Part shown: positions 374 to 19,089 of the stretch, piece after piece
Layout: every line of letters starts with the position of its first letter
Position numbering within the stretch: the stretch's first letter is position 1
Assembly: GCA_016235865.1 (NCBI GenBank)
Contig: JACRIK010000029.1
Location: forward strand, 1-52,384
Length of the DNA stretch: 52,384 bases
Direction: 5' to 3'
Origin: Planctomycetota bacterium
Lineage (GTDB): Bacteria; Planctomycetota; MHYJ01; JACQXL01
Position numbers and translations under genes: made by a program
Notes under the pieces: model-generated
The model's input: only the letters and a program-made list of their open reading frames with translations
Told to the model about the DNA's origin: nothing
Database searches by the model: none

Positions 374-1501
374 TTAACCCGGTTCCACCCAGCAGCCGGG
401 GTCAGGCCCGTAGGCGCTGCCGGATCCGACATAGCCGGGTCCGCATTCAATACAATAATCAACTACCGGACAGGCCCGGCATTTGGCAAACTCCTGTTTC
501 TTATGGGCAATAAACGGCTCTCTTTCCAACGACCTTAATAAGCCGGATGACTCGTAGATTCCCTGGAAAGAGTCGCCGGGCATTTTCCCGATCTTTACCG
601 GGATGAGGGTGCGGGGCTGAACCGTTCCATCAGGCAGGACCACAAAACAGATGCCGGCAATCATCGGCCCGACAGTTATCCTGGGACCATAGGTCCGGAC
701 ATATTCATCCCAGCGCCCCAGTTCATAAAATACCCGCGCGAACAACGGCTCGCCGCTGAGCAGCGAGGTCTTAAGACGAAGATACCGTTCATCCAGCGAA
801 TCAAGGAAATTTATGATATTGACCAGGACCGGGCGGTATTCCAGGGATGAGAGCGCGTCATCTTTAAGTTTTTCGCCCCGGCCGGCCGGTAACAGCAACG
901 CAATATTCATTGCCCCGGCTCCGGCCTCAACTGCCTGGCTGATAATTTCAATTATTTCCGGGGCGCTATTCCTGGAGATAGTCAGCCGGACGGCCGAAGG
1001 TAACCCGGCCGCAGCCAGTAATTTCAAGGCATCCAGGGTCTGCCGGAAACTGCCCGGTTGCCGGATAAAATCGTGGTATGACCGGCTGCCTTCCAAACTC
1101 ATTACATAAACCGCCACCCCGCGCTCTTTCAGCCGGCCGGCTGTTTCGGCGGTCAGATGCGCCGGATTGCCGTGGATAGATATCTGGCTGATCGGCGCGC
1201 CGGCCTCCCGGTATTCTTTGGCGATTTCCAGGATATCCATAAAGTCCGGCCGTAAGAGCGGGTCGCCGCCGGTGAAGAGTATTTTACCGTCCAGATTATT
1301 GCTCCGCAGGAATTCCCTAAAAGAACCTAATATCTTCAGACAGTCGCTATAAGGCAGGTCCGGCCGGGTGGTGTCGCGGTCAATAAAACAATGTTTACAA
1401 CCCAGGCCGCATTTATGGGTAATCTCCCAGCGGATGAGGCACTGCTTCCCGGAAGTATCGGCAGAACCTGGACCATGATTTTTAAGTATTGGCGATAACA
1501 T
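374..1501 (-). CDS. radical SAM/SPASM-like protein, paralogue 1 of the 375-aa family
   Basis: About 375 residues from the ATG at 1501. The radical SAM CX3CX2C is C31-GLG-C35-KH-C38, followed by a GGDP glycine motif. The C-terminus has an accessory-cluster pattern CxxCx5C with a final Cys in the ending 'PDPGCWVEP', shared by all five paralogues. The frame extends upstream to an ATG at 1633, but those 44 residues are translated from 9-bp tandem repeats. The next paralogue starts at the matching MLS.ILKN, so 1501 is preferred. Such enzymes reductively cleave S-adenosylmethionine; those with C-terminal auxiliary clusters often modify peptides. The substrate is unknown. Last gene of the minus-strand array. 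Confidence 0.85.
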   Translation of the reverse strand: MLSPILKNHGPGSADTSGKQCLIRWEITHKCGLGCKHCFIDRDTTRPDLPYSDCLKILGSFREFLRSNNLDGKILFTGGDPLLRPDFMDILEIAKEYREAGAPISQISIHGNPAHLTAETAGRLKERGVAVYVMSLEGSRSYHDFIRQPGSFRQTLDALKLLAAAGLPSAVRLTISRNSAPEIIEIISQAVEAGAGAMNIALLLPAGRGEKLKDDALSSLEYRPVLVNIINFLDSLDERYLRLKTSLLSGEPLFARVFYELGRWDEYVRTYGPRITVGPMIAGICFVVLPDGTVQPRTLIPVKIGKMPGDSFQGIYESSGLLRSLEREPFIAHKKQEFAKCRACPVVDYCIECGPGYVGSGSAYGPDPGCWVEPG

Positions 1502-1605
1502 AATATAATTTAACCGGTTAGGATAGTTTTGCCGGTTTAGCCAGTTAAGATAGTCAGACCAGTTTAGCCGGTTAGACCAGTTAAGGCAGTTTTGCCGGTT
1601 TACTG
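1502..1605. repeat. 9-bp tandem repeat array upstream of radical SAM paralogue 1
   Basis: About ten imperfect 9-base units of the form CCRGTTWAG (for example CCGGTTTAG, CCAGTTAAG, CCAGTTTAG, GCAGTTTTG) run head to tail. Because 9 is a multiple of 3, the array stays open in the reading frame of the downstream gene and gives a spurious Leu-Asn-Trp-like repeat if translated. The stretch is nearly identical to 2906-3008, so array and gene start were duplicated together. Confidence 0.8.
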
Positions 1606-1783
1606 AACTCTTGCGAAACGCCCCCTCTGTCATTCCCGCGAAGGCGGGAATCCAGTAATTACAGGGGGCATGGATTCCTGCTTTTCCTACGGAACTCTCA
1701 TTAATGAAAATCCCGTTAGGGGTCGCAGGAATGACACCTTTTGGGTGGTCTTTTCCCCATTTCGCAAGAGTTCAGTAAACCGG
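1595..1783. mobile_element. 189-bp inverted-repeat (MITE-like) element
   Basis: A perfect 24-bp inverted repeat bounds this segment: 1595-1618 (CCGGTTTACTGAACTCTTGC...) and its reverse complement at 1760-1783. Inside is a REP-like palindrome near 1630-1658 (CATTCCCGCGAAGGCGGGAA) and a related inverted copy near 1671-1735. No transposase is encoded. The right arm carries the last codons and TGA stop of radical SAM paralogue 2. The outer 9 bases of each arm match the 9-bp repeat unit, so the structure could be a fold-back duplication rather than a true transposable element. Confidence 0.55.
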
Positions 1784-2905
1784 TTCCACCCAGCAGAACG
1801 GATTCGGGGCGTAAGGGCTGCCCGAAATCTGATAACTGTTGCCGAGCATACTGCCGCAGTAATCCACCGCCGGACAGGCCCGGCATTTGGCAAATCCGGC
1901 TTTCTTTCTATTGGTATATTCTTCATCTTCCAGAGACCTCAATAGTTCGGATGATTCATAAATCTGCCGGAACGAATCCCGGGGCGCCCGGCCAATCTGC
2001 ACCGGGATGAGCCGCCGGGGATATACCGCGCCGTCAGACAATACAAAGAAAGTCAAGCCCTTACTGAAGACCGAGGTTCTCGCCCCCAGGGAAGAAATCA
2101 GTTCCTGATATTCCGGCCAGCGTCCGAGTTCGTGGAAGAGCCGGGCGAAAAGATGCTCGGCTCCGAGCAGCGTATGACTGAAATGATGCCCCGGCGCTCC
2201 GAGCGTATCAAGAAATTCCAGCACTTTTACCAGAAGACGGCGGTATTCTAAAGGGGTAAGAACCTTTTCCGCATTATTTCCGCCATTGGCCGGGCTAATC
2301 AGTGGGTTAATATTAAAAGCGCTCACCCCCTCGGCGACGGCCAGACGAAGAATATGGGGCAGTTCGCGGGCATTAGAACGGGTGAGCGTAAACTTAATAG
2401 CGGTTCTGATGCGCGCGGCGCGCAGTTCCCTTAAACTCATCAGGACTTCCTGAAACCGCCCCCGGTAGTGCCAGGTATCATAGATTGAGGGCCGATGATG
2501 CAAACTGAAGCGGTACTGGGAAACATCCGCAGATTTCAGCCGGCTGACGATGTCTCCGTCGGCTGGAAACGGCCGGCCTGAAATAATAATGCGGTCAATC
2601 GCACCGGCCCGGCGATATTCGTCAGCCGCTTTCAGGATATCCCAGAAATCTTTCCGTAGAAGCGGGTCGCCGCCGGCAAAAATCAAATCGCCCCTGAGAT
2701 GATTCTGCCGGAGGAAGGAAATAAACGAGTCCAGTATTTTAAGGCAGTCCGCCTGATTTAAATCAGGCCGGGACGAATTACCGGCCGGAAGGCAAAACGG
2801 ACAATCCTCGGCCGGCCGGCCGGTAATCTGCCAGAAAAGCAGGCATTTCTTCCTGGAAGTATCGGCAGAACCTGGACCCTGATTTTTAAGTATTGACGAT
2901 AACAT
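1772..2905 (-). CDS. radical SAM/SPASM-like paralogue 2, degenerate cluster motif
   Basis: 377 residues, colinear with paralogue 1 (MLSSILKN start, GGDP motif, C-terminal CxxCx5C and 'NPFCWVEP' ending). The [4Fe-4S] motif is damaged: where relatives read ITHKC-GLG-C-KH-C this protein reads ITGRP-AED-C-PF-C, so the first cysteine is Pro31 while C35 and C38 remain. The DNA at this point is a run of GGCC repeats. With two of three cluster ligands it is unlikely to cleave SAM in the normal way. It may be a pseudoenzyme, for example a partner of an active paralogue, or a decaying copy. The frame is otherwise intact and the accessory cysteines are kept. The TGA stop lies inside the terminal repeat of the 1595-1783 element. 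Confidence 0.8.
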   Translation of the reverse strand: MLSSILKNQGPGSADTSRKKCLLFWQITGRPAEDCPFCLPAGNSSRPDLNQADCLKILDSFISFLRQNHLRGDLIFAGGDPLLRKDFWDILKAADEYRRAGAIDRIIISGRPFPADGDIVSRLKSADVSQYRFSLHHRPSIYDTWHYRGRFQEVLMSLRELRAARIRTAIKFTLTRSNARELPHILRLAVAEGVSAFNINPLISPANGGNNAEKVLTPLEYRRLLVKVLEFLDTLGAPGHHFSHTLLGAEHLFARLFHELGRWPEYQELISSLGARTSVFSKGLTFFVLSDGAVYPRRLIPVQIGRAPRDSFRQIYESSELLRSLEDEEYTNRKKAGFAKCRACPAVDYCGSMLGNSYQISGSPYAPNPFCWVEPVY

Positions 2906-3011
2906 AATATAATTTAACCGGTTAGGACAGTTTTGCCGGTTTAGCCAGTTAAGATAGTTAGACCAGTTTAGCCGGCTAGATCAGTTAAGGCAGTTTTGCC
3001 AGTTTAGACAG
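2906..3011. repeat. 9-bp tandem repeat array upstream of radical SAM paralogue 2
   Basis: Second copy of the 9-base array (CCRGTTWAG units), about eleven units. It matches 1502-1600 with only a few substitutions. Together with the first codons of the gene it forms a duplicated block (2866-3004 against 1462-1600). Confidence 0.8.
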
Positions 3012-3386: not shown

Positions 3387-3412
3387 AATTACTTCCTCCT
3401 TTTCATATTAAC

Positions 3413-3555
3413 ATGCCGGTTTAGATAGTTATGCCAGTTAACCAGTTTTTGCCGGTCAATCGGCTCAACTGACTAAACTGTCTCAACTGGCTAAACTAAC
3501 TCAATTATCTCAACTGACTTAACTAACTAAACTGACTCAACTGCCTAAACTGGTT
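3413..3555. repeat. 9-bp tandem repeats in two opposed orientations
   Basis: From about 3413 to 3467 the units read CCRGTTWAG-like on the plus strand. From about 3470 to 3553 they read in the reverse sense (CTCAACTGA, CTAAACTGT, CTCAACTGG, CTAAACTAA and so on), nine to ten units. The two halves form a large imperfect inverted repeat. The last units run into the stop codon of radical SAM paralogue 3, whose terminal codons CCA GTT TAG match the repeat unit. Confidence 0.75.
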
Positions 3556-4678
3556 CCACCCAGCAGCCGACAGCGGGGCCATACGGACTGCCCGAAACAA
3601 AGTAAGTCATTCCTATATTTTTACAGTAGAGCGCAACCGGACAAGTCCGGCACTGCTCAAATTTATCATTCCTGATTTCCAGGTATGCGTTATCTTCAAA
3701 CGACTTTAACAACCCGGAGGATTCATAAATCTCCTGGAAAGAATCCCGCGGCACCTGCCCGATTTTAACTGGAATGAATCGCCCGGGCCAGACCGTTCCG
3801 TCAGATAAAACAGCAAATGTCAGGCCGGGGGAAAGCTGTGTGGGAATGATTGTATACGGATAGAAACAATCCAGGTATTCTTGCCAGCGGCCCAGTTCAT
3901 AGAAAAGCCGGGCATATAAACCCGCGTCAGCTATAGTTGAGGCCTTGAAAACACGATAATGTTCATCCAACGTATCCAGAAAATTAAGGACATCCAATAA
4001 AACCTGCCGGTATTCAGGGGGCGAAAGGATATGCTCCTTTAATTCTTCTCCCCGGCCTGATGCAATTAGCGGGGCGATATGCAGAGAATAAAGACCGGCC
4101 TGAAGCATTGTTTTAATAACTTCAATTATGTTCGGCGCATTAAGTTTGGAAACAGTCAAACTCATTGAGGTTTTAATGCCCGCTTGACGCAGGTGGTTCA
4201 AAGCGGAAAGGGTTTGCCGGAAACTGCCCGGCTTACGAAAGAAATCGTGCACCCGCTCATCGCCTCCCTCTGTGCTGAGTCCGTAGGAATCAATGCCCAG
4301 ATATTTCAGTTTCCCGGCCATTTCTTCGTTTATGAAAACAGGATTCCCTTGAATAGCCACCCAGTAGATGAACCCGGATAAGCGGTATTCTCTTATGTTT
4401 TCCAGGATATCCAGAAAGTCCTTTCTAAGAAACGGGTCGCCGCCGGTTAAAACCATCCTGCCCGCAAGGTTATTACGTGAAAGGAAGTTCTGGTAAGAAT
4501 GCAACACCCGGCCGCAATCTTCGTAAGACAAATCATCGGACGGTTTTTTATCCGCGATGATGCAGTGCTTACATTTCATACTGCACTTATGGGTAATTTC
4601 CCAGCGCAATACACAGGATTTCCCGGCCGGCGGTCCGGCATTCCCGATTATCCGGTTATGCAGTTCTGATGTATTCAT
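3545..4678 (-). CDS. radical SAM/SPASM-like paralogue 3
   Basis: 377 residues. The radical SAM motif is intact (C32-SMK-C36-KH-C39), followed by GGDP. The 'KPGSFRQTLSALNHLRQAGIK' region and C-terminal CRTCPVALYC plus 'AVGCWVEP' match its siblings. The N-terminus before WEITHKC is unlike paralogues 1 and 2, so these first 20 residues are not under tight constraint. Probable AdoMet-dependent modifier of a peptide or protein; substrate unknown. Confidence 0.85.
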   Translation of the reverse strand: MNTSELHNRIIGNAGPPAGKSCVLRWEITHKCSMKCKHCIIADKKPSDDLSYEDCGRVLHSYQNFLSRNNLAGRMVLTGGDPFLRKDFLDILENIREYRLSGFIYWVAIQGNPVFINEEMAGKLKYLGIDSYGLSTEGGDERVHDFFRKPGSFRQTLSALNHLRQAGIKTSMSLTVSKLNAPNIIEVIKTMLQAGLYSLHIAPLIASGRGEELKEHILSPPEYRQVLLDVLNFLDTLDEHYRVFKASTIADAGLYARLFYELGRWQEYLDCFYPYTIIPTQLSPGLTFAVLSDGTVWPGRFIPVKIGQVPRDSFQEIYESSGLLKSFEDNAYLEIRNDKFEQCRTCPVALYCKNIGMTYFVSGSPYGPAVGCWVEPV

Positions 4679-4720
4679 ATTTTATTGTATGGACTCTCAA
4701 ACCGGTTCACCCTCGCCCAA

Positions 4721-4774: not shown

Positions 4775-4794
4775 ATAGATGAGGGAGATTTTTC

Positions 4795-5913
4795 TTACTC
4801 CACCCAACAGCCGGGATTAGGGCCATACGGACTGCCCGAGGCGATATAACTCGTTCCGCACTTGGTGCAATAATCAAGGACCGGGCAGGTCCGGCATTTG
4901 GCAGATGCCTTTTTCTTGTTTTCTATGTAATCCTCATCCAGCGACCTGAGTAACTCCGCTGATTTCTCGTAAATCTTCTGGAATGAATCACCCGGCAGCC
5001 GTCCGATGGTTACCGGGATGAGCCGGCGCGGATAAACCGTCCCGTCCGGCAAAATCGCAAACCCCAATCCCGAACTATTAACTCCGTGGGTGGGCCGGGC
5101 GCCATAGGTCTCCTGATACTCATTCCAGCGCCCCAATTCGTAAAAAAGGCGGGCGAATAATGATTCATCTCCGACCAGAGAAAACCGAACCGCATCAGAG
5201 CGTCCATCCAAAGTATCCAGGAAATTCAGCACCGTCAGAAGGGTCCGGCGATATTCGGCCGGGGTCAGGACCTGGTTCTGTAACATTTTGCCCCGCCCGG
5301 ACGGCAGGAGCGGTCCGAGATTCATCGTGGAAACACCGGCGCTAATCATTGTTTGAATAACCTCAACGACCTGGCCGTCATTAATCCGGGATACGGTCAA
5401 TCTGACCGGGACCTGAATACCGGCCTGACGCAGACAACGTATGGCCGATAAGGTCTGCCGGAAACTGCCCGGCTGGCGGAAGAAGTCGTGTAGTTTTTCA
5501 CATCCTTCCGTGCTCAGGGCATAGACCGAAACGCCGTTTTCTTTCAGACGGCTGGCCACGGTTTCATCCAGGTGGGCCGGATTACCCTGGATAATAATGG
5601 CCCGGACGGTTCCCGCCCTGAGATATCCGGCGGTGATTTTAAGGATGTCCAGAAAATCAGTCCTGAGAAGCGGGTCGCCGCCGGTAAAGAATATCTTCGC
5701 GCTAAAATTATTAGCGCTGACAAAATCACCCAGGGAGGCCAAGACGCCCAGACAATCTTCATAAGAAAGATTTCCGGCCGGGGTGTTGTAGGCCTGGATG
5801 CAGTGTTTGCAGCCGACATCGCACTGATTCGTGATTTCCCAGCGGATGAGGCAGGTTTTCCTTTCATCCTGAGCCGCAGACAAGGGTTTCTGATAACCTG
5901 ATGTTATATGCAT
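4795..5913 (-). CDS. radical SAM/SPASM-like paralogue 4
   Basis: 372 residues from the ATG at 5913. A longer frame begins at 6093, but its first 60 residues cross repeat DNA and the end of the upstream gene, and 5913 has a GGAAT ribosome site and gives the family's usual length. Radical SAM motif C31-DVG-C35-KH-C38, GGDP, 'RQPGSFRQTLSAIRCLRQAGI', then C-terminal CRTCPVLDYC and 'NPGCWVE'. Same predicted chemistry as its siblings. Confidence 0.85.
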   Translation of the reverse strand: MHITSGYQKPLSAAQDERKTCLIRWEITNQCDVGCKHCIQAYNTPAGNLSYEDCLGVLASLGDFVSANNFSAKIFFTGGDPLLRTDFLDILKITAGYLRAGTVRAIIIQGNPAHLDETVASRLKENGVSVYALSTEGCEKLHDFFRQPGSFRQTLSAIRCLRQAGIQVPVRLTVSRINDGQVVEVIQTMISAGVSTMNLGPLLPSGRGKMLQNQVLTPAEYRRTLLTVLNFLDTLDGRSDAVRFSLVGDESLFARLFYELGRWNEYQETYGARPTHGVNSSGLGFAILPDGTVYPRRLIPVTIGRLPGDSFQKIYEKSAELLRSLDEDYIENKKKASAKCRTCPVLDYCTKCGTSYIASGSPYGPNPGCWVE

Positions 5914-5955
5914 CTTATTCCATTCCCTTTTGGTAAGAGTAATTACTTCCTTGCT

Positions 5956-5976
5956 CCTCTCCCCGCTGGGGAGAGG
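5956..5976. repeat. palindromic repeat, second copy
   Basis: Arms CCTCTCCCC and GGGGAGAGG around a three-base loop, the same family as 4721-4741. It lies between paralogues 4 and 5. Confidence 0.5.
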
Positions 5977-6040
5977 GATTATGTTCCATCTTGTCTCTCC
6001 CCGCCGTGGTTCCAGCAACGGAGCGAAGCACGACGAGAAT

Positions 6041-7159
6041 TTACTCCACCCAGCACATCGGATTGGGCGCATGCGGATTTTCGGACGCGGCATAGGAATC
6101 GGCCATCATATTACCGCAGTAGTCCACCACCGGGCAATTACGGCATTTCTCAAACTGGGCCTTCTTTTGCCCGATATACGCGCCCGTTTCAAGCGAGCGG
6201 ACTAAACCGGACGAGTCATAAATTTCCTGGAAAGAATCCCGCGGCGCCTGTCCGATTTTCTCCGGGATAAACCTCCGGGCCCGGACCGTCCCATCCGGCA
6301 GGACGGAAAAAGAAAAACCCTTGCCGCAGGCCGGGATAAGCCGGTGCGATTCAATCAGTTTCCGGCAGTCAGCCGGCCGGCCTAATTCATAAAAAAGACG
6401 GATAAACAGGTGTTCGGCGCTCAACACCGAATATTTTAACCGGTCATATTGGACCGGTACCGTATCCAGCAGATTAATTACATCCATTAAAATCCGGCGA
6501 TACTCTGCCGGCGCCAGCCGTTCATCCTGAAGGTTTTTCGCGTCGCCAAAAAGAACCAGTTGCGAGAACTGGAATGAATTCGTCCCTTCGGTCATCATCA
6601 GGCGGATGACATCCACCAGGTCGCGGGCATTGAGCCGGCAGAGCGTGGATTTTACCGAGGTGCCGACGCCTTCGGACTTCAGGCACCGTAAGGCATTGAT
6701 GGTCTGCCGGAAACTGCCGGGTTGACGAAGGGCATCGTGGGCGGCCTCAAGCCCGTCAATACTTAACTGGAGTCGGGGCGCCCCCAGCGCCTTTAGACGC
6801 CTGGCCATGGCCCGGTCTATCAAGGTAGGATTAGCCAGAATAGTGAAATCCGCCAGACCGCCGGACCGGCGGTATTCATCCGCGACCTTTAAGATATCCA
6901 GGAAATCATTGCGTAAGAACGGGTCGCCGCCCGTAAAAATCAGGGAGGCCGATAGATTATTACTCAGGGCGAATTCCCGGTATGAGTCAAGCACCTTTAG
7001 ACAATCCTCGTAAGAAAGTTCATCCGCGGGGATATCCGTCCCGCGATAGCAGAATTTGCAATGCAAATCACACCGGCTGGTAATTTCCCAGTGGAGCAGG
7101 CAGCTCTTGTCCCGGGACGCCGCAGGGAGAAACTGATTCTTCAGGTTAAATATTCCCAT
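6041..7159 (-). CDS. radical SAM/SPASM-like paralogue 5
   Basis: 372 residues from the ATG at 7159, which has GAGGG about 9 bases upstream and aligns MGIFNLKN with MLSPILKN of paralogue 1. A start at 7189 is also open. Motif C30-DLH-C34-KF-C37, then GGDP, 'RQPGSFRQTINALRCLKSEGV', C-terminal CRNCPVVDYC and 'NPMCWVE'. It overlaps the end of the upstream radical SAM gene by 14 bases, so the two are probably translated in a coupled way. This is the junction between the two radical SAM families. Confidence 0.85.
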   Translation of the reverse strand: MGIFNLKNQFLPAASRDKSCLLHWEITSRCDLHCKFCYRGTDIPADELSYEDCLKVLDSYREFALSNNLSASLIFTGGDPFLRNDFLDILKVADEYRRSGGLADFTILANPTLIDRAMARRLKALGAPRLQLSIDGLEAAHDALRQPGSFRQTINALRCLKSEGVGTSVKSTLCRLNARDLVDVIRLMMTEGTNSFQFSQLVLFGDAKNLQDERLAPAEYRRILMDVINLLDTVPVQYDRLKYSVLSAEHLFIRLFYELGRPADCRKLIESHRLIPACGKGFSFSVLPDGTVRARRFIPEKIGQAPRDSFQEIYDSSGLVRSLETGAYIGQKKAQFEKCRNCPVVDYCGNMMADSYAASENPHAPNPMCWVE

Positions 7160-8174
7160 CCGGACTTTCCCTCTCATTGACTGATTCATAATTTCTGCGC
7201 CGGCCCAACTGCCCGACGAGCCAATGCGGCCGCCTCAGGGTTCTTATGGGCTTAAGTTCGTCCAGCCCGATTAACCGGGCATAGGAAATCCAGACGCCGA
7301 AACATAAATCATTCGCCTGGCATTCCCGGCAGAAAACAGATTTGACAAAGGAGAAGTCAGCCGGCCGGTTTTCCCAGTACCGTTCGGCCCCATAAATCGT
7401 TTTTGTGGTATAAGGCAGACGGAAGATGAACGGATAATAATCCTCCGGCGCGGGGAAAATACATACCGGCAGATACTGGAGAAAAATGTTCTGCTTGAGA
7501 GCGACGGCCGTCTTGACCGCATCCGCCAGACAGGGCTGCGCCTCGGTGAAAGTGATTGAGGTTTTATCCCTATTTGCGCTGGTTATGTCCGGCATGCTCA
7601 ATGGTTCAATACACAACATATCCGGCCTGGGAAATTCATGGTCAATGAACCGGATAATTTCAGAAAGATATTTTGCCGTCATTTTCCCCAGAAGTATTTT
7701 CAACATAATTTCAAGAGGATAACCGCGGTCTTTCAGGGCAAATAGGTTTTTGATACCGGCCACGGTTTCCGCAAAACTGCCCGGCACACCCGTGTAATCA
7801 TCGTGGATGGCGTGATTTGATCCGTGCAGGGGAATCACGACGCTCCGGATACACGTTTCCAGCGCCAGCCGGGCGAACTCTTCAGAGCGGAATGACCGGC
7901 CGTGGGTAAACAAGCGGACCTGTCCGCCTAATCGGTTGGCATAATCAGCCACCCTGATAAAATCCGGATGGAGCGTCGGTTCGCCGCCGGTAATTGATAC
8001 GAATTGCCCGGCCCGGAGATTTTTATCAAGATATCCTTTAATCTCTGAGAAGGCCAGCATTCCATTCCGGCCCTGGGGCGGACAGGCGATGCAATTATTG
8101 TCACAGGTATAACATAATTCAATCAGATGACAATGGTCCTGCCTGACTTCCTGAATTACTTTCTCGGCGTTCAT
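7146..8174 (-). CDS. radical SAM protein, compact family, member A
   Basis: 342 residues. CX3CX2C is C24-DNN-C28-IA-C31, followed by GGEP. The C-terminal part has an isolated Cys ('VCIFP') and then CRECQANDLCFGVW...GLDELKPI, a CxxCx5C accessory-cluster pattern. The layout (GGEPTLH, 'GRSF', 'IPLHGSN..IHDDYTGVPGSFAETVAGI', C...CxxCx5CxG) resembles HxsC-type maturases of the His-Xaa-Ser system, but that is only a pattern match. A GGAGG lies 15 bases before the ATG, farther than usual. The C-terminal 25 residues are extended relative to members B and C and overlap the next gene. Confidence 0.8.
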   Translation of the reverse strand: MNAEKVIQEVRQDHCHLIELCYTCDNNCIACPPQGRNGMLAFSEIKGYLDKNLRAGQFVSITGGEPTLHPDFIRVADYANRLGGQVRLFTHGRSFRSEEFARLALETCIRSVVIPLHGSNHAIHDDYTGVPGSFAETVAGIKNLFALKDRGYPLEIMLKILLGKMTAKYLSEIIRFIDHEFPRPDMLCIEPLSMPDITSANRDKTSITFTEAQPCLADAVKTAVALKQNIFLQYLPVCIFPAPEDYYPFIFRLPYTTKTIYGAERYWENRPADFSFVKSVFCRECQANDLCFGVWISYARLIGLDELKPIRTLRRPHWLVGQLGRRRNYESVNERESPDGNI

Positions 8175-8420: not shown

Positions 8421-9374
8421 TTACATCAATCGGGACGCACCTCTAATCCATACCGGTAATTTTAACCGCCTGATAGGTTTTAATTCCGCGAGCCCCGCCA
8501 ATTCCCCGTAGGAACGCCAGACCCCGGCGCAGAATTTGTCTGCTTCGCATCCCGGACATAAACCCGATTTAACAGTCATTTTCTTCAAGCCCATATTCTG
8601 AGGATGGCGCATTGGTCCATAGATTGATCGGGTTTCTTTTATAAGAGGTAAAAGAAGACGATAATAAAACCGCGGATCCGGAAATACACAAGGAGGAATA
8701 TCCAAAAGAATAATATTCTGGCCGTGGGCCAGACCAAATTTCACCCCCTTATCAATATGGGGCGCCGCTTCAGTAAAGGTTATTAAAAGATCGTCTTTGC
8801 TGTTTAAGGCCTTGTATATTATATCCGTGATTTCCACAAACAAACATTCCGGACGGGGGAAATTATCGTTTATAAATCGGACACTGTCCATAAAATATTT
8901 TATGTTCATCCTGGAAACGAGTAATTTCAGGACAATGTTACCCGGATAGCCAAGCGCCGTTAGAATAAAAAGGTTTTTTATCCCTGTGGTTGTTTCTTCA
9001 AAACTACCGGGGGAGCGGGTTATCCGATTATGAATCTCAGGGTCAGGGCCATGCAAGGCGATATAAATAGTTCCAACACCTGATTTAAGCGCGGATTCAG
9101 CGAACTCATAGTCGCAAAATTTGCGGCCATTGGTTAATAAATTTACTTTTCGTCCGGAGTTGCCGGCATATTCCATAATTCTTATAAAATCAGGATGAGT
9201 TGTCGGCTCTCCGCCGGTAATCGCAATAGTTGAACCTTCTCCGGCATTCGTGTCAATGAAATCTTTTATTTCCTCAAATGATAGTATTTCATTATTCCAA
9301 GGAGTAGGACAGGAGATGCAGTTATTATTACATCCACCGCATATCTCAAGGTAAAGGTTGTTCGGTTTAGACAT
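8421..9374 (-). CDS. radical SAM protein, compact family, member B
   Basis: 317 residues from the ATG at 9374. An upstream TTG at 9392 is possible, but the ATG follows the previous stop directly and has AAGG 8 bases before it. Motif C15-NNN-C19-IS-C22, GGEPTTHPDF, 'IALHGPDPEIHNRITRSPGSFEETTTGI', an isolated Cys in 'PPCVFPDP', then CPGCEADKFCAGVWRSYGELAGLAELKPI. Clear tandem duplicate of its neighbours. Substrate unknown. Confidence 0.85.
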   Translation of the reverse strand: MSKPNNLYLEICGGCNNNCISCPTPWNNEILSFEEIKDFIDTNAGEGSTIAITGGEPTTHPDFIRIMEYAGNSGRKVNLLTNGRKFCDYEFAESALKSGVGTIYIALHGPDPEIHNRITRSPGSFEETTTGIKNLFILTALGYPGNIVLKLLVSRMNIKYFMDSVRFINDNFPRPECLFVEITDIIYKALNSKDDLLITFTEAAPHIDKGVKFGLAHGQNIILLDIPPCVFPDPRFYYRLLLPLIKETRSIYGPMRHPQNMGLKKMTVKSGLCPGCEADKFCAGVWRSYGELAGLAELKPIRRLKLPVWIRGASRLM

Positions 9375-9376
9375 TT

Positions 9377-10312
9377 TTAACGCCTTATACAAAACGGCGG
9401 TTTTAGGTTTTTTATGGGCTTAAGTTCGTCAAATCCAACCACTTGTGCATAAGATTCCCAGACGCCGGCGCAGAATTTGTCTGCTTCGCATTGCCGGCAG
9501 GATTCCGCCTTAACGGCCGTCCCGTCCAGGAGAAAGTTTTCCTGGTAACGGGTCGGACCATAGATAACCTGCGATTCTTCAGGTTGCGTCTGATAGACCA
9601 CCGGGTAATAAAATTCAGGATTAGGAAAGATACAGGGCGGGATATCCTTGAGTTGGAGATTCAGCCCCTTGGCCAATCCGATTTCCACGGCCTGAGCCAC
9701 ATAAGGAACCGCCTCGGTCAGCGTCAGCAATAACTTATCCTTGTTTTCCTCTGCCTTGCAGACGATATCCATTGCGCAGAGCATCACCAGATTGAGACCG
9801 GGGAATTCATCGTCTACGAACCTGACGGTCTCCGGCAGGCGCTCTATATTTATTTTGGATATAAGTAATTTCAAGGTAACGGTTACCGGCGCGCCGCTGG
9901 TTTTTATTCCCAGGATATTCTTGATGCCGGCCACGGTCTCGGTAAAACTGCCTTTGGACCGGGTAAGTTGCTCGTGGATTTCCTCATTGGGCCCGTGCAA
10001 GGGGATGCAGATACCGTAGAGCCCGGCTTTGACAGAAGCATCAGCAAATTCCCGGTCAGAGAACCGCCGGCCGTTGGTCAATAAACTCAAATGGGCGCCC
10101 AATTTATGGGCGTAAGCAATAATATTAATGAAATCAGGATGGATCGTTGGCTCGCCGCCGTTGACGGCCACAATCGTGCCTGGCTGCACCTTATCATCCA
10201 GAAACTCTTTTATCTTGTCAAAGGGCAATATACCGCCCTCCCAGGGCGTGGGACAACTCAGGCACCGGCTGTTGCAGGTGTAACAGAGTTCCAGATAACA
10301 ACGATTAGCCAT
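9377..10312 (-). CDS. radical SAM protein, compact family, member C
   Basis: 311 residues from the ATG at 10312 (a GTG at 10321 is also in frame). Motif C13-NSR-C17-LS-C20, GGEPTIHPDF, 'IPLHGPNEEIHEQLTRSKGSFTETVAGI', Cys in 'PPCIFPNP', C-terminal CRQCEADKFCAGVWESYAQVVGFDELKPI. Its stop is two bases before the ATG of member B, so the pair is translationally linked. Confidence 0.85.
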   Translation of the reverse strand: MANRCYLELCYTCNSRCLSCPTPWEGGILPFDKIKEFLDDKVQPGTIVAVNGGEPTIHPDFINIIAYAHKLGAHLSLLTNGRRFSDREFADASVKAGLYGICIPLHGPNEEIHEQLTRSKGSFTETVAGIKNILGIKTSGAPVTVTLKLLISKINIERLPETVRFVDDEFPGLNLVMLCAMDIVCKAEENKDKLLLTLTEAVPYVAQAVEIGLAKGLNLQLKDIPPCIFPNPEFYYPVVYQTQPEESQVIYGPTRYQENFLLDGTAVKAESCRQCEADKFCAGVWESYAQVVGFDELKPIKNLKPPFCIRR

Positions 10313-10358
10313 AATATACACTGATTAGCGCAGGATAAAAGCGCAAGATTAACGCAGA

Positions 10359-10857: not shown

Positions 10858-11904
10858 TTATCTTAACTGCTGTAATAAGAGTTTTAGCAAAATAAACAAT
10901 GCCGAAGCGATTATGAACGGGGCAAAAGGAATTGACTGGGCCGCGCCCCGGACAGGGATTCGCAACATCTTCTGTTCCCGCTCTTTTTCTTTCAGGTAAT
11001 TGATATCGGACTCGGTTAATTCTTTAGGCGCCTTCATTACTATTTCCGCATCATTGCGGATGAAAGGGCTGCCGATAATTTTCCGGCCTGACTTGTACAG
11101 GTTATACGCCAATTCCATGCCGGCTTTTAAGCCATCAGGCGCAAAGAATGCCAGATGTGAGAAGAAATCCAGCGAAAAATATAAAGTAACCAGGAAGATA
11201 AACCCAAATAAGTGTAACAGATTAATAAGCGGAAAAGCGTTATTGGTTGTTTTGATTAATGCCAGAAGCCCGATAGCCAGAAGTGCGTAAATATGCCAGA
11301 TTTTAATCCGGCCGGTGAAATAACGATTAAGCCGGCTCTGGATAAGGTAAAACAGCAGGTATATCACAACCGTCCGCAAGGTGACATCTATGTTGAGCTG
11401 GATGATCAATGACACCGAATACGTAAAGATTGCCTGACATAACCGTTCTACGGAAAAGACGGCCCAGCCGGTTCTAAGAAGAACAATCCAGAGTTTTCCT
11501 CTAATGATAGATTTGAACAATAACCATAAGAACAGCAGAAGGTAACAGAGAGCCAGGGATAAACAGAAATTAAAAATAACCAGTTTAAGAGGATATAACG
11601 CCAGAGGAGTGATATTCAGGGTGGCGGCGATAAAAAGTTTACCGTCGCCTCCATGCCAGAGGTTGAAATAGTATGAGCCGAATCCCAGCCCTGACGCCAA
11701 TGTTAAGGCGAGAAGAATATCCCCGGTTGTATTTGTTCCGGTAAAAATGGTCAGCATATTGGCGAATAGGCCGAAGATTAAGAAGATGAGCAAAGGACGG
11801 TTGGGGATTGTCCGGCGGGTGATGTCGGTATAAGAAAAGTATATCCCGAAAATCAGGGTCATCGCCAGGGTAATAGCACATTGGATAAAAAATCTTTCAT
11901 TCAT
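10858..11904 (-). CDS. A24-family prepilin-type peptidase, multi-pass membrane protein
   Basis: 348 residues with about eight to nine hydrophobic segments. The two catalytic aspartates of A24 peptidases are visible: D27 in YTDITRRTIPN and D87 in the HGGDGKL motif. The N-terminal methyltransferase domain of classical PilD is absent. The C-terminal half (from about residue 115) is longer than in usual A24 proteins and ends in a charged loop plus a final membrane segment. Known members cleave class III leader peptides of prepilins and preflagellins. No pilin, pilus ATPase or secretin gene is in the window, so a role in trimming a modified precursor is an attractive but unproven idea. Confidence 0.75.
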   Translation of the reverse strand: MNERFFIQCAITLAMTLIFGIYFSYTDITRRTIPNRPLLIFLIFGLFANMLTIFTGTNTTGDILLALTLASGLGFGSYYFNLWHGGDGKLFIAATLNITPLALYPLKLVIFNFCLSLALCYLLLFLWLLFKSIIRGKLWIVLLRTGWAVFSVERLCQAIFTYSVSLIIQLNIDVTLRTVVIYLLFYLIQSRLNRYFTGRIKIWHIYALLAIGLLALIKTTNNAFPLINLLHLFGFIFLVTLYFSLDFFSHLAFFAPDGLKAGMELAYNLYKSGRKIIGSPFIRNDAEIVMKAPKELTESDINYLKEKEREQKMLRIPVRGAAQSIPFAPFIIASALFILLKLLLQQLR

Positions 11905-13550: not shown

Positions 13551-13561
13551 AAATATTTCCT

Positions 13562-14479
13562 TTAGCATGAACCCGCTACAAAAGGATTCAACTCTGCTGT
13601 CCCATATATTCTAATGTAGTTCGCGTCTACACCGGGACATTTAGTCATCAGGCGACACCTTTGGCATTTATTAGAATATATTTTACCCTTATTAGCCGCG
13701 TTGTCAATAAAATAATCACCGTTTTTAATATACCCGATATAATTCCTCGGATAGCGGGATGCGGCTATTTCACGCGGCGCCAGGCAGAGCGGAAAATCCC
13801 TCAGAATAATATTAAGTTTTTCCTGTTGGGCAAGGGTATTTATCTTTTGTAAGTATGGTCTAATTTTACTCATTTCTACCGAAAGGTTCTTGTTTTCTAA
13901 AACCCGACCGTGATATTTAAGAGCAAGTATTTGTAATCCGTCCAGACCCAATCCGAAGTTATTAAAGAGTTTTTCACTGAATTCATATAATCTTGTATAG
14001 TTTTCTGCGGTGCAGACGCAATTGATGATAAATTTCCGGTTATTTTCCTGGAGGTAGTTCAGGGTTTTCATTACCTGCGAAAACGAATCATCATTGCCGA
14101 CCAGGCGGTTATGGACATCAGGGATATGGGAATGCAGGGATACCAGGAGGACATCCACCTTATCTATAATCTTCCTGAACTCCGGTGAACCAGGCAGGAG
14201 CACGCCGTTGGTGGTCATCAACACCCGGAGTTTGTTCTGACGGACTAATTCAACCGCCTTATTTAATGAATCATACAGGAGCGGTTCGCCGCCTCCGAAC
14301 CAGATTCCCTTAATCCGGTATTCGGCTATGCCTTTCTTGATAAGAGCGTCCAAATCCTTAAGAGTTATTGAATCTTCGCCCCAGAAATCTGCCTGCTTGA
14401 AACAGAACCGGCATTTCTGGTTGCATTTATTAGAAATATGCACAACTAATGTCGGGTAGCGGTCAAAAAAGAATCTCAT
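13562..14479 (-). CDS. radical SAM protein, HxsC-like layout
   Basis: 305 residues. Radical SAM motif C19-NQK-C23-RF-C26, GGGEP, and 'SLHSHIPDVHNRLVGNDDSFSQVMKTL'. The C-terminal part has an isolated Cys in 'FPLCLAPRE' followed by CQRCRLMTKCPGVDANYIRIYGTAELNPF, the same C...CxxCx5C pattern as the compact family and HxsC maturases. The start overlaps the stop of the asparagine-synthetase-like gene in an ATGA, indicating coupled translation and a shared pathway. Confidence 0.85.
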   Translation of the reverse strand: MRFFFDRYPTLVVHISNKCNQKCRFCFKQADFWGEDSITLKDLDALIKKGIAEYRIKGIWFGGGEPLLYDSLNKAVELVRQNKLRVLMTTNGVLLPGSPEFRKIIDKVDVLLVSLHSHIPDVHNRLVGNDDSFSQVMKTLNYLQENNRKFIINCVCTAENYTRLYEFSEKLFNNFGLGLDGLQILALKYHGRVLENKNLSVEMSKIRPYLQKINTLAQQEKLNIILRDFPLCLAPREIAASRYPRNYIGYIKNGDYFIDNAANKGKIYSNKCQRCRLMTKCPGVDANYIRIYGTAELNPFVAGSC

Positions 14480-15951
14480 ACATGCCCCCTAAACCATATC
14501 TCTAAAACAGCCAGACAATATCTAAGGAAGTCGTTTCTATTATCCGTATCTATATCTATAGAATCAACAATCTTTTTAATGGAAGCCCCATTTAAAATAC
14601 CTTTATCCACCAAATAGGAGGCGCTAAGAAAAGAGCGCTCTATCTCTTTTAAACCGATAGCAAATCGTTCTCCTGGTCTTGTTCCTCCCCTATGAATATC
14701 CTCCCGCGTCACGACTTCCTGAGGCAGGTAAGGTCTCGCTGATTGCCGCAGAATATATTTTTCTATACCATCTTTTATTTTATACCGCACAGGTATTGTC
14801 AAGGCAAACTTCATGAAATCTTCTGCCAGGTAGGGATAAATGTTACCATATCCTATCCAAATAAGTTGCCAGTGAGGGATACGGTATCTCAGGCAAAACT
14901 CCTGAAGTAATTTTACCCCCTCTTCAGGCGTCTGAAATAAGGTATAACCTCTTAAAGGCTGCTTATCCATATACATAAGCACATCTTCTAATGCTTGTTT
15001 TGTGAATAGCAAGTGTTTCTGGTTTTCCGTAAAAGGGAATGTCATCAAATAAGGAAGCAGCCGTTTAGTGGCGTTTTGTCTCATCAGAAAACGAGGTAAA
15101 AATACTTCTTTATTGACATCATCCGGCTGAAGGAGTTGGTGGAACTGTGGCCAGCCCAGGAATAATTCATCTCCACCCATACCGGTAATATGAACCATTC
15201 CCGTGTTCTCATCCTGATAATACTTCCTGATAAATACTCTCTGATTTGAAGTGGGCAGATCTATTTCTCTGATTGCGCTGAGTAGCCCTGCAATCGCCTC
15301 ATCTCCGGATAATATTTTTTCGCGATGGTCGGTCTTGAGATGCCTGGCGACCTTTCTGGCATAATGGATATCATCGCCCAGCACTTCTTCAAAACCAACG
15401 GTAAAAGTTCTCAACCTCTCTTTAGGATACATTTCTCTTACCAAGGCAGTAAGCATACTGGAATCAATCCCGCCGGACAGCATAATTACGGCTTCTTCCG
15501 GATTCTTCTCTTGTAATGTTTTTTTTATAGACGCCCTTAAGAGATTCTGTATCTGCGCAACATAATAAGATTCGTCATTAGCATCGGGTGCGAATTCAAA
15601 TTGGGGTAGCGTCCGATTTATTTCTTTTTTAATCCCGGCCTGAGCATTCCAGGTAAGGGTTTCGCCAGGTTCCAATTTATAAATATTTTTAATGGGCGTG
15701 AGTTCAAAAGGCAAATAACCAAAAGTAAGAAAATTATAAACGCCAACCGGGTCAGGGTGTACTTCCGACATCTGACAAATCAAATTCTTTATATTTGTAT
15801 CATAAATAAAATAATTATTTTCATGGTAATAATAAATGGGCGGGTCGGTAATATAATTACGAACAAGTTTAACGTCAGAGGAGGATTGTTTTATGGTCAT
15901 TTTTATGTCTTGAGGTTTATTTTGTTTTGATAAACCGGCCGCATCGTTCAT
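14476..15951 (-). CDS. asparagine synthetase-like ATP-dependent amide-forming enzyme
   Basis: 491 residues. An ATP pyrophosphatase loop SGGIDSS lies at 159-165, followed by 'TFTVGFEE....D..YAR.VA..L.TDH' and 'TGMGGDELFLGW', all typical of AsnB-type synthetase domains. The N-terminal part (about 30-140) looks like a worn-down Ntn glutaminase domain ('LTFGYLPFELTPIKNIYKLEPGETL') but has no Met-Cys-Gly start, so glutamine hydrolysis is not expected. Lasso-peptide cyclases and beta-lactam synthetases show the same loss and adenylate a carboxylate for intramolecular amide formation. It overlaps the radical SAM genes on both sides (35 and 4 bases). A peptide substrate is inferred from context only. 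Confidence 0.8.
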   Translation of the reverse strand: MNDAAGLSKQNKPQDIKMTIKQSSSDVKLVRNYITDPPIYYYHENNYFIYDTNIKNLICQMSEVHPDPVGVYNFLTFGYLPFELTPIKNIYKLEPGETLTWNAQAGIKKEINRTLPQFEFAPDANDESYYVAQIQNLLRASIKKTLQEKNPEEAVIMLSGGIDSSMLTALVREMYPKERLRTFTVGFEEVLGDDIHYARKVARHLKTDHREKILSGDEAIAGLLSAIREIDLPTSNQRVFIRKYYQDENTGMVHITGMGGDELFLGWPQFHQLLQPDDVNKEVFLPRFLMRQNATKRLLPYLMTFPFTENQKHLLFTKQALEDVLMYMDKQPLRGYTLFQTPEEGVKLLQEFCLRYRIPHWQLIWIGYGNIYPYLAEDFMKFALTIPVRYKIKDGIEKYILRQSARPYLPQEVVTREDIHRGGTRPGERFAIGLKEIERSFLSASYLVDKGILNGASIKKIVDSIDIDTDNRNDFLRYCLAVLEIWFRGHV

Positions 15952-17149
15952 AAAACAAAAACGGGCCCTCTGATTTGGTTCTCCAAAGTTTTTTATCCGT
16001 CAGGGAAACATTGTCAATATGCCCCACTACCTCAGTGTCTCTGGGGCAACCGATGATATATCCCTCCGGGTCAATACTGGTGCCGTTCCAGCCGATACCG
16101 CAGCCGAAATCATAGCCGCAGGCGCCGACATAGCGCCGTTCCAGCATACCGGTCAATGCCAGTTTAAATGTCTCCCATTCCGCGCGGGTCAACACCTCCA
16201 AATCTTCGTTAAACGGCACGTATGGCGTAATATGCGGAGTGGCATCATATTTATCGCAAAGGTCCAAGATGTATTCCAGGCTGAACCTGTTCAGGCGCGA
16301 GATGCTGATGGCGATTTGTCTTTTGATGTTACTTTGGGCCAGAATATCCAAAGCCCGTAAAGGGATATCAATCTTTTGCCCGCGTATCTGCCTATATATT
16401 TCGGCGTCGCCGTCAATACTGACCTGGACTGAAAACCTTTCAAATAAATCACGCGCCCGTTTCAGTAACTCTATATTTTTTGGCACCAATAAACCATTGC
16501 TCCCCAATCGGACATCATTGAAATACAGTCCGTTGACTTTTAAATCACCAATCAGGTCTACGACTTGGGGCAATTCAGGATGAAGAAACGGCTCGCCGCC
16601 TAACAGATAAACAGAGATATCAGCGAAATCCCTGGCCCGCTCAACAGCCAGAAACTGCCGGCACATTTTCTCGATTGCCTTCAGGGATAAATCCGGATTT
16701 TTCAGGTGTTTGTTCTTCAGTTGATTATAACAATGCTTGCAGTCAAAGTTACAGCGGCCGGTAAGCTGTAAATTAAGGAAAAATCTTGGCCTGTGAAGCG
16801 ATTCCAGGAGAGAGATTGACTCCAAACAGTAGAAATCACTCCCTCTTTTCACCGATACCTTCCTTTGGCCATAAAGCCGTTGATAGCCGGCCAGGGCGGA
16901 AAGAACAAACCTCTCATCCCGGGGTGATAAATTATTTATCTCCGCCTTGATATCTTCATCGGGCTTGAGATATCTGGAAAAACCGCTGAAATTATCGGGT
17001 GTAATCCCTATCTGAGGCGTAAACGCAACGGATTCTCTTAAGGTATAATATTGCTTACTCATCCTGACATGATTTACCGACTTTATACTTTCGGCTGGTA
17101 ATCTAAATCTACCGACCTTCCGCTCATCCGGGAAGTTGCTTCCCACCAT
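15917..17149 (-). CDS. radical SAM/SPASM protein next to the HxsB-like gene
   Basis: 410 residues if the ATG at 17149 is used. An ATG at 17062 (381 residues) lies just after the previous stop, and neither has a convincing ribosome site. Motif C133-NFD-C137-KH-C140 (long form), preceded by about 100 residues with a YQRLYGQRK stretch. GGEPFLHPELP follows, then 'SIDGDAEIYRQIRG'. The C-terminus has 'GACGYDFGCGIGWNGTSI' and 'GYIIGCPRD', SPASM-type cysteines for auxiliary clusters, and a final Cys. It takes the place of hxsC in the gene order, but its C-terminus is not of the HxsC pattern. Confidence 0.8.
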   Translation of the reverse strand: MVGSNFPDERKVGRFRLPAESIKSVNHVRMSKQYYTLRESVAFTPQIGITPDNFSGFSRYLKPDEDIKAEINNLSPRDERFVLSALAGYQRLYGQRKVSVKRGSDFYCLESISLLESLHRPRFFLNLQLTGRCNFDCKHCYNQLKNKHLKNPDLSLKAIEKMCRQFLAVERARDFADISVYLLGGEPFLHPELPQVVDLIGDLKVNGLYFNDVRLGSNGLLVPKNIELLKRARDLFERFSVQVSIDGDAEIYRQIRGQKIDIPLRALDILAQSNIKRQIAISISRLNRFSLEYILDLCDKYDATPHITPYVPFNEDLEVLTRAEWETFKLALTGMLERRYVGACGYDFGCGIGWNGTSIDPEGYIIGCPRDTEVVGHIDNVSLTDKKLWRTKSEGPFLFYERCGRFIKTK

Positions 17150-18504
17150 TCCAGTAAGGTATTTTTATGTTCACCCAGCAGGAGTTTAACCACGTATTCT
17201 AATTGTTTCTGCCTGAGTTGGCAGTGGAAGTCGCGGAGTTTAATGGGAATAAATCCTTCTTCTTTCCCGGATGGCTGAAGCAGGCAGGTCCCGCAATAAG
17301 GCGACCAGACACATTGCCTACAAGGAGTATTCAGGTTACTCAACCCCCTGAGTCCTTTGGTTTTGGTTATCAAATCCTCGTATGTCATCTCACTGACATT
17401 CCCGATAGTAAATGACTCGCCAAAACTTCTGCTTGCGTCGCAGAAATAAATATCACCGGCCGGGTCGTATGACACCTGGTTTATACCGGCGCCGCAAGGA
17501 CTTCTGTAACACATATACACTCCGCCTGCGGGGCTAAGTAATCTTTCTAAAATAATCGTGGTCATATCCTCCCGCATGGGAATACCCTGTTCATAGAGTT
17601 GGATACAATAGTCCACTCCTTCTTTCCAGAAGTCAAAATACTCTTCCGGCGTGTAGCCGATTTCTTTCCAATGAGGAATAGTTGCGCCCGATAAATTCAG
17701 CTCCCTTAATCTAATATGATATATTTTATGCTTCACGTACTCACCAATAATGGCCTTGGCGCCATACTCCAAAGAATAACGTGTCGTAGTAGCCAAAGTC
17801 CCAATATTCTTGTTGAATCGTTCCCGCGCATAATCAAACCATTTAATAACATTATCATAGCTGTTTGTATTCGCCATCAGTCGCTGCTTGTTATGCAATT
17901 CCTTAGGGCCATCCAAAGAAGTAACTACATTGAATCCCATCTTTAATAAATCAGTAAAGATTTCCTCTGTCATCCCTGAAAGATTTGTCACTAAACGATA
18001 AATTATTCTTTTATCACCTCTTTCTTTTTCCAATTTACCGGCGATATATTTTACTATTTCTAAATTCAGAAGTGATTCGCCTCCCTGGAACTCAGCCGAA
18101 AGAACCTTAGCAGTTGACGATAAGATAAAATCAGATACATTATCGGCTGTTTCTTTAGACATATCTTGCACCCCCGTCAGTTCCGGAGCAGGCGATGCCG
18201 CATGACAATATATACAGCGGTGCGTGCAGCGATTAGTAGCCACAATAATATGGAGCGCCACCGGCTCGCATAAGAAAGAATAGCGCTGACGGAGCCGGTT
18301 TTTAATAAGTTCTATATTCCCCTTGGTAAGAATAATGCCTTCTTCTTCCAACCTCTTATATAAATCCGGGTCTTTCTCAGCTTGGTAGGTTATCAGCGAC
18401 TTATATTCCGGCTCGGTCAGGACATCCCAGGCGCCGGAAATAGTAGAAACCAGATATTTGTCATCCAATTTCTTGCTCATCACATCAGCGATATAATTTG
18501 CCAT
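17083..18504 (-). CDS. HxsB-like radical SAM/SPASM maturase
   Basis: 473 residues, a usual HxsB length. The N-terminal 80 residues ('GAWDVLTEPEYKSL...LYKRLEEEGII....IELIKNRLRQRYSFL') resemble the HxsB leader region. The radical SAM motif is C93-THR-C97-IY-C100 in 'LHIIVATNRCTHRCIYCHA', then 'AEFQGGESLLN' and 'NVVTSLDGPKELHNKQR'. The C-terminus is a full SPASM domain: 'SPCGAGINQVSYDPAGDIYFCDASR' and CRQCVWSPYCGTC (CxxCx5CxxC). In the His-Xaa-Ser system HxsB acts with HxsC and HxsD on the HxsA protein. Here it directly follows two HxsD-like genes. Assignment is by recognised pattern, not by a search. Confidence 0.7.
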   Translation of the reverse strand: MANYIADVMSKKLDDKYLVSTISGAWDVLTEPEYKSLITYQAEKDPDLYKRLEEEGIILTKGNIELIKNRLRQRYSFLCEPVALHIIVATNRCTHRCIYCHAASPAPELTGVQDMSKETADNVSDFILSSTAKVLSAEFQGGESLLNLEIVKYIAGKLEKERGDKRIIYRLVTNLSGMTEEIFTDLLKMGFNVVTSLDGPKELHNKQRLMANTNSYDNVIKWFDYARERFNKNIGTLATTTRYSLEYGAKAIIGEYVKHKIYHIRLRELNLSGATIPHWKEIGYTPEEYFDFWKEGVDYCIQLYEQGIPMREDMTTIILERLLSPAGGVYMCYRSPCGAGINQVSYDPAGDIYFCDASRSFGESFTIGNVSEMTYEDLITKTKGLRGLSNLNTPCRQCVWSPYCGTCLLQPSGKEEGFIPIKLRDFHCQLRQKQLEYVVKLLLGEHKNTLLEWWEATSRMSGRSVDLDYQPKV

Positions 18505-18515
18505 TTTATATATAT

Positions 18516-18770
18516 TCAGTTAGGAAACAGTGAAACACCGCTAATCAGGGCATCGTTATATAATATTGCCAGGTTTTCCTGATTGGCCCCGGTTTTTATT
18601 GATGTCAGAATAACCTCATAAATATCCTTCTTGTCAACCACAACCATTTTGCATTCATCGGCTACGGCGTGCCCGGCCCCATTAATCATATCCGTGTTAT
18701 AAATTTCCTTTTCCAGAAATAGAATGATTTTGCCGTCTTTTATGGTATAATTATTAAACTCTTGGTTCAT
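18516..18770 (-). CDS. HxsD-like small protein, second copy
   Basis: 84 residues from the ATG at 18770, chosen because a GGAG lies 9 bases upstream; starts at 18785 and 18800 are also open. It aligns with the first copy through the pattern 'K...I.L...IY....I.GAGHAVADE..MVV.DKKDIYEVILT.I....NQENLAILYNDALISG', but lacks the C-terminal helix. HxsD-like proteins are the small partner of the two radical SAM maturases in the Hxs system, possibly for substrate recognition. It overlaps the first copy by 17 bases. Confidence 0.6.
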   Translation of the reverse strand: MNQEFNNYTIKDGKIILFLEKEIYNTDMINGAGHAVADECKMVVVDKKDIYEVILTSIKTGANQENLAILYNDALISGVSLFPN

Positions 18771-19089
18771 CTTTTTGGACTCCATATAGCGCGGTGGCAA
18801 TAAGCACTTTTCTTAATTCGTCATTCTTGGCTGATTCCTGATAAAACATCGCATAGTTTACCAGCTGGTCGTTAAAATCCCGGGCCAGTTCGTCCAGGAT
18901 ATTATCGCCGGCCTTTTCATCTATCGGAGTCAGCTTAGCCAGGAACTCGCCGTTCTTTTTGTCCTTGCCCACTACTAGATGTGCTTTACCCAACATGGCA
19001 TATCCTGCTGCCAATACTGCCTCTTTACTGTAAAGTGCCGGGTCTATGGTAACAACTACAGAACCTTTTTCTTTATGATAATTCTCCAT
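18754..19089 (-). CDS. HxsD-like small protein, first copy
   Basis: 111 residues, with a strong AAAGGAG ribosome site 8 bases before the ATG. The sequence pattern 'VVVTIDPALYSKEAVLAAGYAML..AHLVV..DKKNGEFLAKLTP....DNILDELARDFNDQLVNYAMF.......ELRKVLIATALYG' matches the HxsD family as remembered: an (I/L)D...Y...A...A.Y.......V........V.L.P......LAGEFLNELL.......R......I...AL core. First gene of the operon, behind the promoter at 19114-19143. Confidence 0.65.
   Translation of the reverse strand: MENYHKEKGSVVVTIDPALYSKEAVLAAGYAMLGKAHLVVGKDKKNGEFLAKLTPIDEKAGDNILDELARDFNDQLVNYAMFYQESAKNDELRKVLIATALYGVQKDEPRV

Follow-up and report, generated by a model that had tools for sequence, protein, structure and literature searches.

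What does a bacterium make with eleven radical S-adenosylmethionine (SAM) genes gathered on one strand? The window analyzed here, 52,384 nucleotides from a Planctomycetota bacterium (JACRIK010000029.1), makes up all of contig C29 in the draft genome G000 (2.67 Mb). An earlier note, made from the letters alone, had read in it an array of eleven radical SAM genes that might mature an exported, heavily modified peptide or protein. A PF04055 search of the contig, with all matches above the Pfam cut-off, found exactly 11 such genes, all on the - strand between 374 and 18504. We consider it likely that the array matures a ribosomally synthesized and post-translationally modified peptide (RiPP) of a divergent and expanded Hxs type, and that its substrate is an 89-residue precursor encoded on another contig, C37.

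The earlier note had named the absence of a visible target as the main gap. A target was found both on C37 and in the syntenic cluster of G005, a genome from the same order and a different family. The G005 cluster holds genes for HxsD1, HxsD2, HxsB, an orphan radical SAM enzyme, a PstS-like protein, an A24 peptidase, two HxsC-like enzymes, a B12-type radical SAM enzyme, a fourth HxsC-like enzyme and two ACGX-like enzymes, and its last gene is a 100-residue precursor open reading frame (ORF) that contains two HTNTV repeats and whose tail is rich in Cys. The sole homolog of this precursor found in the genome of the window is G000:C37:9867-10136 (89 residues, E=6e-29), with the sequence MKENKRKPARNLVNFIKSEAGGISQDKVIKIGGLTLGLLAGMSGQVFAPRTHADTVDLVFNAGAPSVGTHANTVSWSWGWGNWSACSCA. 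Its leader is of the HxsA3 type and is followed by a hydrophobic segment for export, which closes with a VFA-like signal-peptidase site, and then by the core repeats and a Trp/Cys tail. Its core has two H-x-[N/D]-T-V repeats that read HADTVD and HANTVS, which is why an exact DNA pattern for HTNTV[S/other] had no match in G000. Within C29 and the scanned part of C37 the H-x-[N/D]-T-V motif is confined to this precursor.

Both leaders are homologous to HxsA3 (NF038309), with E=3.6e-8 in G005 and 8.8e-5 in G000, and they are the top two matches among the 59 genomes compared, though the G000 match alone is near noise. The matches cover the leader region only, and at 33.1 bits in G005 and 22.2 in G000 they stay under the cut-off of 65. 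The two leaders are strongly conserved, and since their nucleotide changes fall 7/4/21 across the first, second and third codon positions, the precursor is a coding gene under selection. A tblastn search of the precursor against plasmids gave no match. Most of the weak hits of a precursor profile elsewhere in the phylum (E 5e-4 to 0.1) lay inside long unrelated ORFs or contained stops and were rejected.

Dispersal of the genes in related genomes was what the earlier note had named as refuting it, and the opposite was seen: they are linked in G005. This bears on whether unrelated radical SAM genes, lacking a common product, could have come together here by chance through local duplication and mobile elements. 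Genes for an IVS protein and a GxxExxY protein, along with repeated sequences, do interrupt the array, and its gene order is partly unlike that of G005. However, at least eight gene types are common to the two clusters, a synteny that already contradicts such an origin, and of 392 genomes sampled from the phylum only two, G000 and G005, have the precursor, and these two alone have a strong HxsD1 match; further members may exist outside the sample. A chance run is therefore hardly credible.

The core of the array is Hxs-like. Hxs systems occur across many bacteria. Named by Haft and Basu, as cited in PMC9062424, they comprise hxsD-hxsB-hxsC with hxsA. Two HxsD-type genes open the array at 19089 and stand right before a full-length HxsB-like gene; this order of D1-D2-B, shared with G005, places hxsD upstream of hxsB as in canonical systems (Table 1). 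Identity to the G005 counterpart is 65% for HxsD-like protein 1, 48% for HxsD-related protein 2 (at the equivalent position) and 67% for the HxsB-like enzyme. The four short HxsC-like proteins lack the canonical N-terminal domain but keep the Cys pattern and have 15 invariant columns in common with canonical HxsC. Enzyme 3 is 52-53% identical to one G005 protein and enzyme 4 is 48-49% identical to its ortholog. For the three short paralogs the NCBI HxsC4 model is the second-best match. A predicted HxsD1 fold (predicted local distance difference test score 79, from a two-sequence alignment) had no PDB match at E<=0.001 and gave no clue to function.

Table 1. Genes of the radical SAM array in the window, with the best profile evidence for each.
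Feature	Position	Strand	Evidence or remark
ACGX-like radical SAM/SPASM rS1; probable start near 1501	374..1633	-	TIGR04340 E=3.5e-44
ACGX-like rS2, lacking the first Cys of CxxxCxxC	1772..2905	-	TIGR04340 E=1.2e-32
23S rRNA IVS four-helix-bundle protein	3012-3386		small gene inside the array, unrelated to it
ACGX-like radical SAM/SPASM rS3	3545..4678	-	TIGR04340 E=1.7e-41
ACGX-like radical SAM/SPASM rS4; probable start near 5913	4795..6093	-	TIGR04340 E=4.9e-50
ACGX-like radical SAM/SPASM rS5; probable start near 7159	6041..7189	-	TIGR04340 E=3.6e-49, 168 bits
Short HxsC-like radical SAM enzyme 1	7146..8174	-	TIGR03977 E=2e-29
Short HxsC-like radical SAM enzyme 2	8421..9392	-	TIGR03977 E=5e-30
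Short HxsC-like enzyme 3	9377..10321	-	TIGR03977 E=1.9e-36; NF038332 HxsC4 E=1.2e-29; both below cut-off
GxxExxY protein	10359-10736		small gene inside the array, unrelated to it
Long-form A24 (prepilin-type) membrane aspartyl peptidase	10858..11904	-	PF01478 30.5 bits (cut-off 26.5), E=5e-7
PstS-like protein, two PBP domains, N-terminal signal-like segment	11979..13568	-	PF12849 (PBP_like_2) E=5e-10
HxsC-like radical SAM enzyme 4	13562..14479	-	TIGR03977 E=2.6e-22
AsnB-type ATP-dependent amide-forming enzyme	14476..15951	-	PF00733 E=6e-45; SGGIDSS at residue 159
Orphan radical SAM enzyme, partial SPASM; probable start near 17062	15917..17149	-	PF04055 E=6.5e-14
HxsB-like radical SAM/SPASM enzyme	17083..18504	-	TIGR03978 E=5e-99, positions 9-465 of 466
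HxsD-related protein 2 (94 residues)	18516..18800	-	NF038315 HxsD_rel E=0.019, weak
HxsD-like protein 1 (111 residues), first array gene	18754..19089	-	TIGR03976 E=1.2e-7, 32 bits

Several points weigh against assigning the array and the precursor to one Hxs-type pathway. The hidden Markov models for Hxs proteins that the earlier note had suggested did return HxsB-, HxsC- and HxsD-type matches, all below the NCBIfam cut-offs: 332 against 370 bits for the HxsB-like enzyme (TIGR03978), 32 against 50 for HxsD-like protein 1 (TIGR03976) and at most 125.5 against 267.9 for the HxsC-like proteins (TIGR03977). The His-Xaa-Ser repeats of canonical Hxs targets are replaced by H-x-[N/D]-T-V. The precursor and the array lie on separate contigs in G000, and eleven enzymes are many for a single visible precursor. 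The candidate A24 site in the precursor, SExGG|IS, has no Glu at +5, unlike classical prepilins, and a signal-peptidase site would likewise account for leader removal. In G262, a distant comparator from another family of the phylum, the A24 protein of the locus is the only A24 match found and so could serve other substrates there. The sigma-54 site described below was not seen at the G005 precursor.

Because scores fell below cut-off throughout, we regard the window proteins as divergent relatives rather than canonical members. The named Hxs loci that we compared, including plasmid ones with the D-B order, have hxsD, hxsB and hxsC with or without hxsA, and no A24, AsnB or ACGX-like genes alongside. 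The system proposed for the window shares with them, besides its HxsD, HxsB and HxsC types, a small exported target with His-containing repeats. It differs in having two HxsD-type genes and four short HxsC-like genes, and in adding the ACGX-like, orphan, AsnB, PstS-like and A24 genes.

The contigs of G262 are short. One of 6.6 kb encodes an HxsA with long His-Xaa-Ser repeats that scores 62.8 bits, over the cut-off, with the HxsA4 model, and whose leader aligns with the two precursor leaders and is of the same HxsA3 type. It also carries two HxsC4-like genes, HxsD, an HxsD-related gene and a 394-residue A24-type protein whose alignment with that of the window runs the whole length of both. On a second contig an HxsD-related gene, in the same position as in the window, adjoins HxsB, both over cut-off; G262 is alone among the sampled phylum genomes in having an HxsB over cut-off. 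Many HxsB-like hits in another genome, G009, were rejected as other SPASM enzymes or a contig-edge fragment. The HxsA3-type leader, the short HxsC pair, the HxsD genes and the long-form A24 thus co-occur in three genomes (G000, G005 and G262).

This combination links the system proposed for the window to the HxsA3/HxsA4-HxsC4 types (NF038309, NF038313 and NF038332), from which it differs in its short core, where the G262 target has long true His-Xaa-Ser repeats, and in its ACGX-like array, AsnB and PstS-like genes, which were not seen on the short G262 contigs. Judged by sequence, the cluster is a divergent, expanded branch of Hxs systems, nearest to these types. The earlier note knew of no described system with such gene content, but relatives exist. 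No characterized Hxs product was found in the open-access papers searched, and newer work may exist.

The radical SAM genes fall, as first proposed, into two expanded families and three distinct members. Five are ACGX/AhbD-like paralogs (40-51% pairwise identity), three are short HxsC-like paralogs (43-49%), and the singletons are the fourth HxsC-like, the orphan and the HxsB-like genes. A motif scan found CxxxCxxC in 10 of the 11 proteins. The exception, rS2, is probably a pseudo-SAM partner or an inactive copy. The orphan enzyme is 60% identical to a G005 ortholog in matching position, and no NCBIfam model came near its cut-off for it. The claim that the genes are joined by overlaps stands in part: they do form one same-strand array, but several overlaps are artefacts of taking the longest ORF, since alignments with paralogs and with the G005 ortholog indicate later starts for rS1, rS4, rS5 and the orphan enzyme.

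For the five SPASM paralogs the ACGX maturase model (TIGR04340) is the best model, with whole-length matches. Their scores of 114-171 bits are far under its cut-off of 400, none of the ACGX target models matches the precursors, and the partner genes are of the Hxs type. One of the five, rS5, is 46% identical to the G005 protein rSb. It is also possible that the locus is composite, with an Hxs-like module (HxsD, HxsB, HxsC and A24) maturing the C37 precursor and the five ACGX-like enzymes and AsnB serving other peptides or a small-molecule pathway, for example a heme-like one. The five also score against the AhbD, NirJ and SbtM models, AsnB is missing from the G005 stretch, and eleven enzymes for one peptide would be unusual. 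In addition, the end of the contig cuts the array short, and more targets may be encoded past this point. However, ACGX-like genes stand directly before the G005 precursor as well as within the array of the window, the spaces between the array genes showed no further small precursor, and the best-matching model belongs to a peptide system and not to heme synthesis. We consider a composite locus unlikely.

The A24 protein carries both Asp motifs of this two-aspartate membrane protease family, YTDIxRRxIPN and GDGKLF, and both are conserved in G005. It departs from other A24 leader peptidases (PF01478) in its long C-terminal extension, its place in an Hxs-type cluster and its being an extra copy. 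Within the order, each carrier of the locus (G000 and G005) has two A24 genes, one of them a canonical gene elsewhere, while each of four non-carriers has one. Next to A24 is the gene for the PstS-like protein (50 bits with TIGR02136, cut-off 206.6), whose 35% identical G005 ortholog also adjoins A24.

Pilin processing is the usual role of A24 enzymes, and in both genomes the gene after the precursor encodes a giant secreted protein. These giant proteins, together with the A24 and PstS-like proteins, could instead belong to pilus or surface assembly, with the radical SAM enzymes modifying a surface protein in place of, or besides, the precursor. Yet the carriers already have a canonical A24 gene, the array yielded neither a pilin nor an assembly ATPase, the repeat motif of the precursor is restricted as noted above, and in G262 the long form of A24 is found with a classical HxsA as well. 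Surface assembly is thus a very improbable role. We tentatively suggest, without holding it to be the probable case, that the A24 protein serves specifically to remove the leader in one class of radical SAM RiPPs, namely Hxs systems with HxsA3-type leaders. It would then couple the heavy radical modification of a tiny H-x-[N/D]-T-V peptide by many enzymes to the freeing of this peptide at the cell surface, next to a giant secreted partner protein. Prepilin peptidases go unmentioned in a review of RiPP leader proteases (PMC10885120). The locus adds a protease to the picture of Hxs systems, as the long-form A24 accompanies HxsA3-type targets in three phylum genomes.

The HxsD-like, AsnB-like, PstS-like and A24 genes of the earlier note were all borne out by profile matches, the second HxsD only weakly (NF038315 E=0.02). 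The AsnB-type protein lacks the N-terminal Cys, and its PDB matches are Asn synthetases, CarA and beta-lactam synthetase. As with lasso cyclases and beta-lactam synthetase, an AsnB-type enzyme without this Cys points to amide formation and not to glutamine hydrolysis, which suggests the same for the protein in the window. No AsnB homolog was found in the G005 stretch examined.

The precursor gene is preceded by an exact sigma-54 site 36 bp before its start codon, and lies downstream of a sigma-54 activator gene on C37. In G000 the exact -24/-12 pattern occurs 18 times and its reverse 0-1 times. Several of the genes downstream of these sites encode lipoprotein- or signal-peptide-like proteins, and the precursor gene is apparently one member of a sigma-54 regulon. 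After the precursor comes a giant secreted ORF (G000:C37:10321-21936) of >3,800 residues with FG-GAP/G8-like and beta-helix-like stretches, which runs off the contig. The start of a homologous giant protein follows the G005 precursor, with a shared stretch 59% identical over 58 residues.

From homology, synteny and motifs we infer the following chemistry, cleavage site, order of steps and function for the pathway that we favor. The HxsD-, HxsB- and short HxsC-like proteins would be the core machinery, recognizing the leader and modifying the His-containing repeats. The ACGX-like SPASM and orphan enzymes, by their synteny in G005, may modify the peptide further, perhaps at its Trp/Cys tail, and in this strain alone the AsnB-type enzyme might form an amide link. 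The peptide would be exported through its hydrophobic segment and its leader removed outside the membrane by the dedicated A24, by signal peptidase or by both, as co-occurrence and the conserved Asp motifs suggest. The PstS-like and giant secreted proteins would also act outside the membrane. The product would most likely be a surface-attached or signaling peptide. The leader, export segment and repeated core lend much support to an exported peptide, as originally proposed; its heavy modification is predicted from the enzymes, of which AsnB is not part of the G005 cluster. Radical SAM genes are unusually many per visible substrate, and a target of two short repeats in <100 residues with so rich a predicted enzyme set makes the chemistry and leader removal directly testable.

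A conserved protein family that no Pfam model matches, some 265 residues long, is encoded near both precursors (L031:4635-5438; L021:5256-6044); C37 carries, not far from the precursor, the homolog of a 262-residue protein of the G005 cluster. Two genes of the G005 cluster, a radical SAM enzyme with a B12-binding domain (L021:9431-10777) and a glycosyltransferase (12738-14012), are not in the array of the window.

The best sigma-70-like match of the region, a candidate promoter at 19143-19114, is just upstream of HxsD-like gene 1. The aspartokinase at 19140-20528 was rejected as an array member, as different genes precede HxsD in G005. At the other end, rS1 is the final gene ahead of a contig break at a repeated transposase-like sequence. 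The left end of C29 (1-344) is repeated in C33 and C27, and its ORF resembles a transposase end. C29 and C37 (C37:1-340) each have short 'atgtggtctgtcccc' repeats close to their left ends. These similar ends could join the two contigs, yet the end of C29 also recurs in C33 and C27. Short repeats seem to be translated in frame (for example as RSDRDSE-like or GDRESVT-like segments) within the coding regions 22317-23768 (folC-like) and L031:6759-8951, as though repeat elements had entered these genes.

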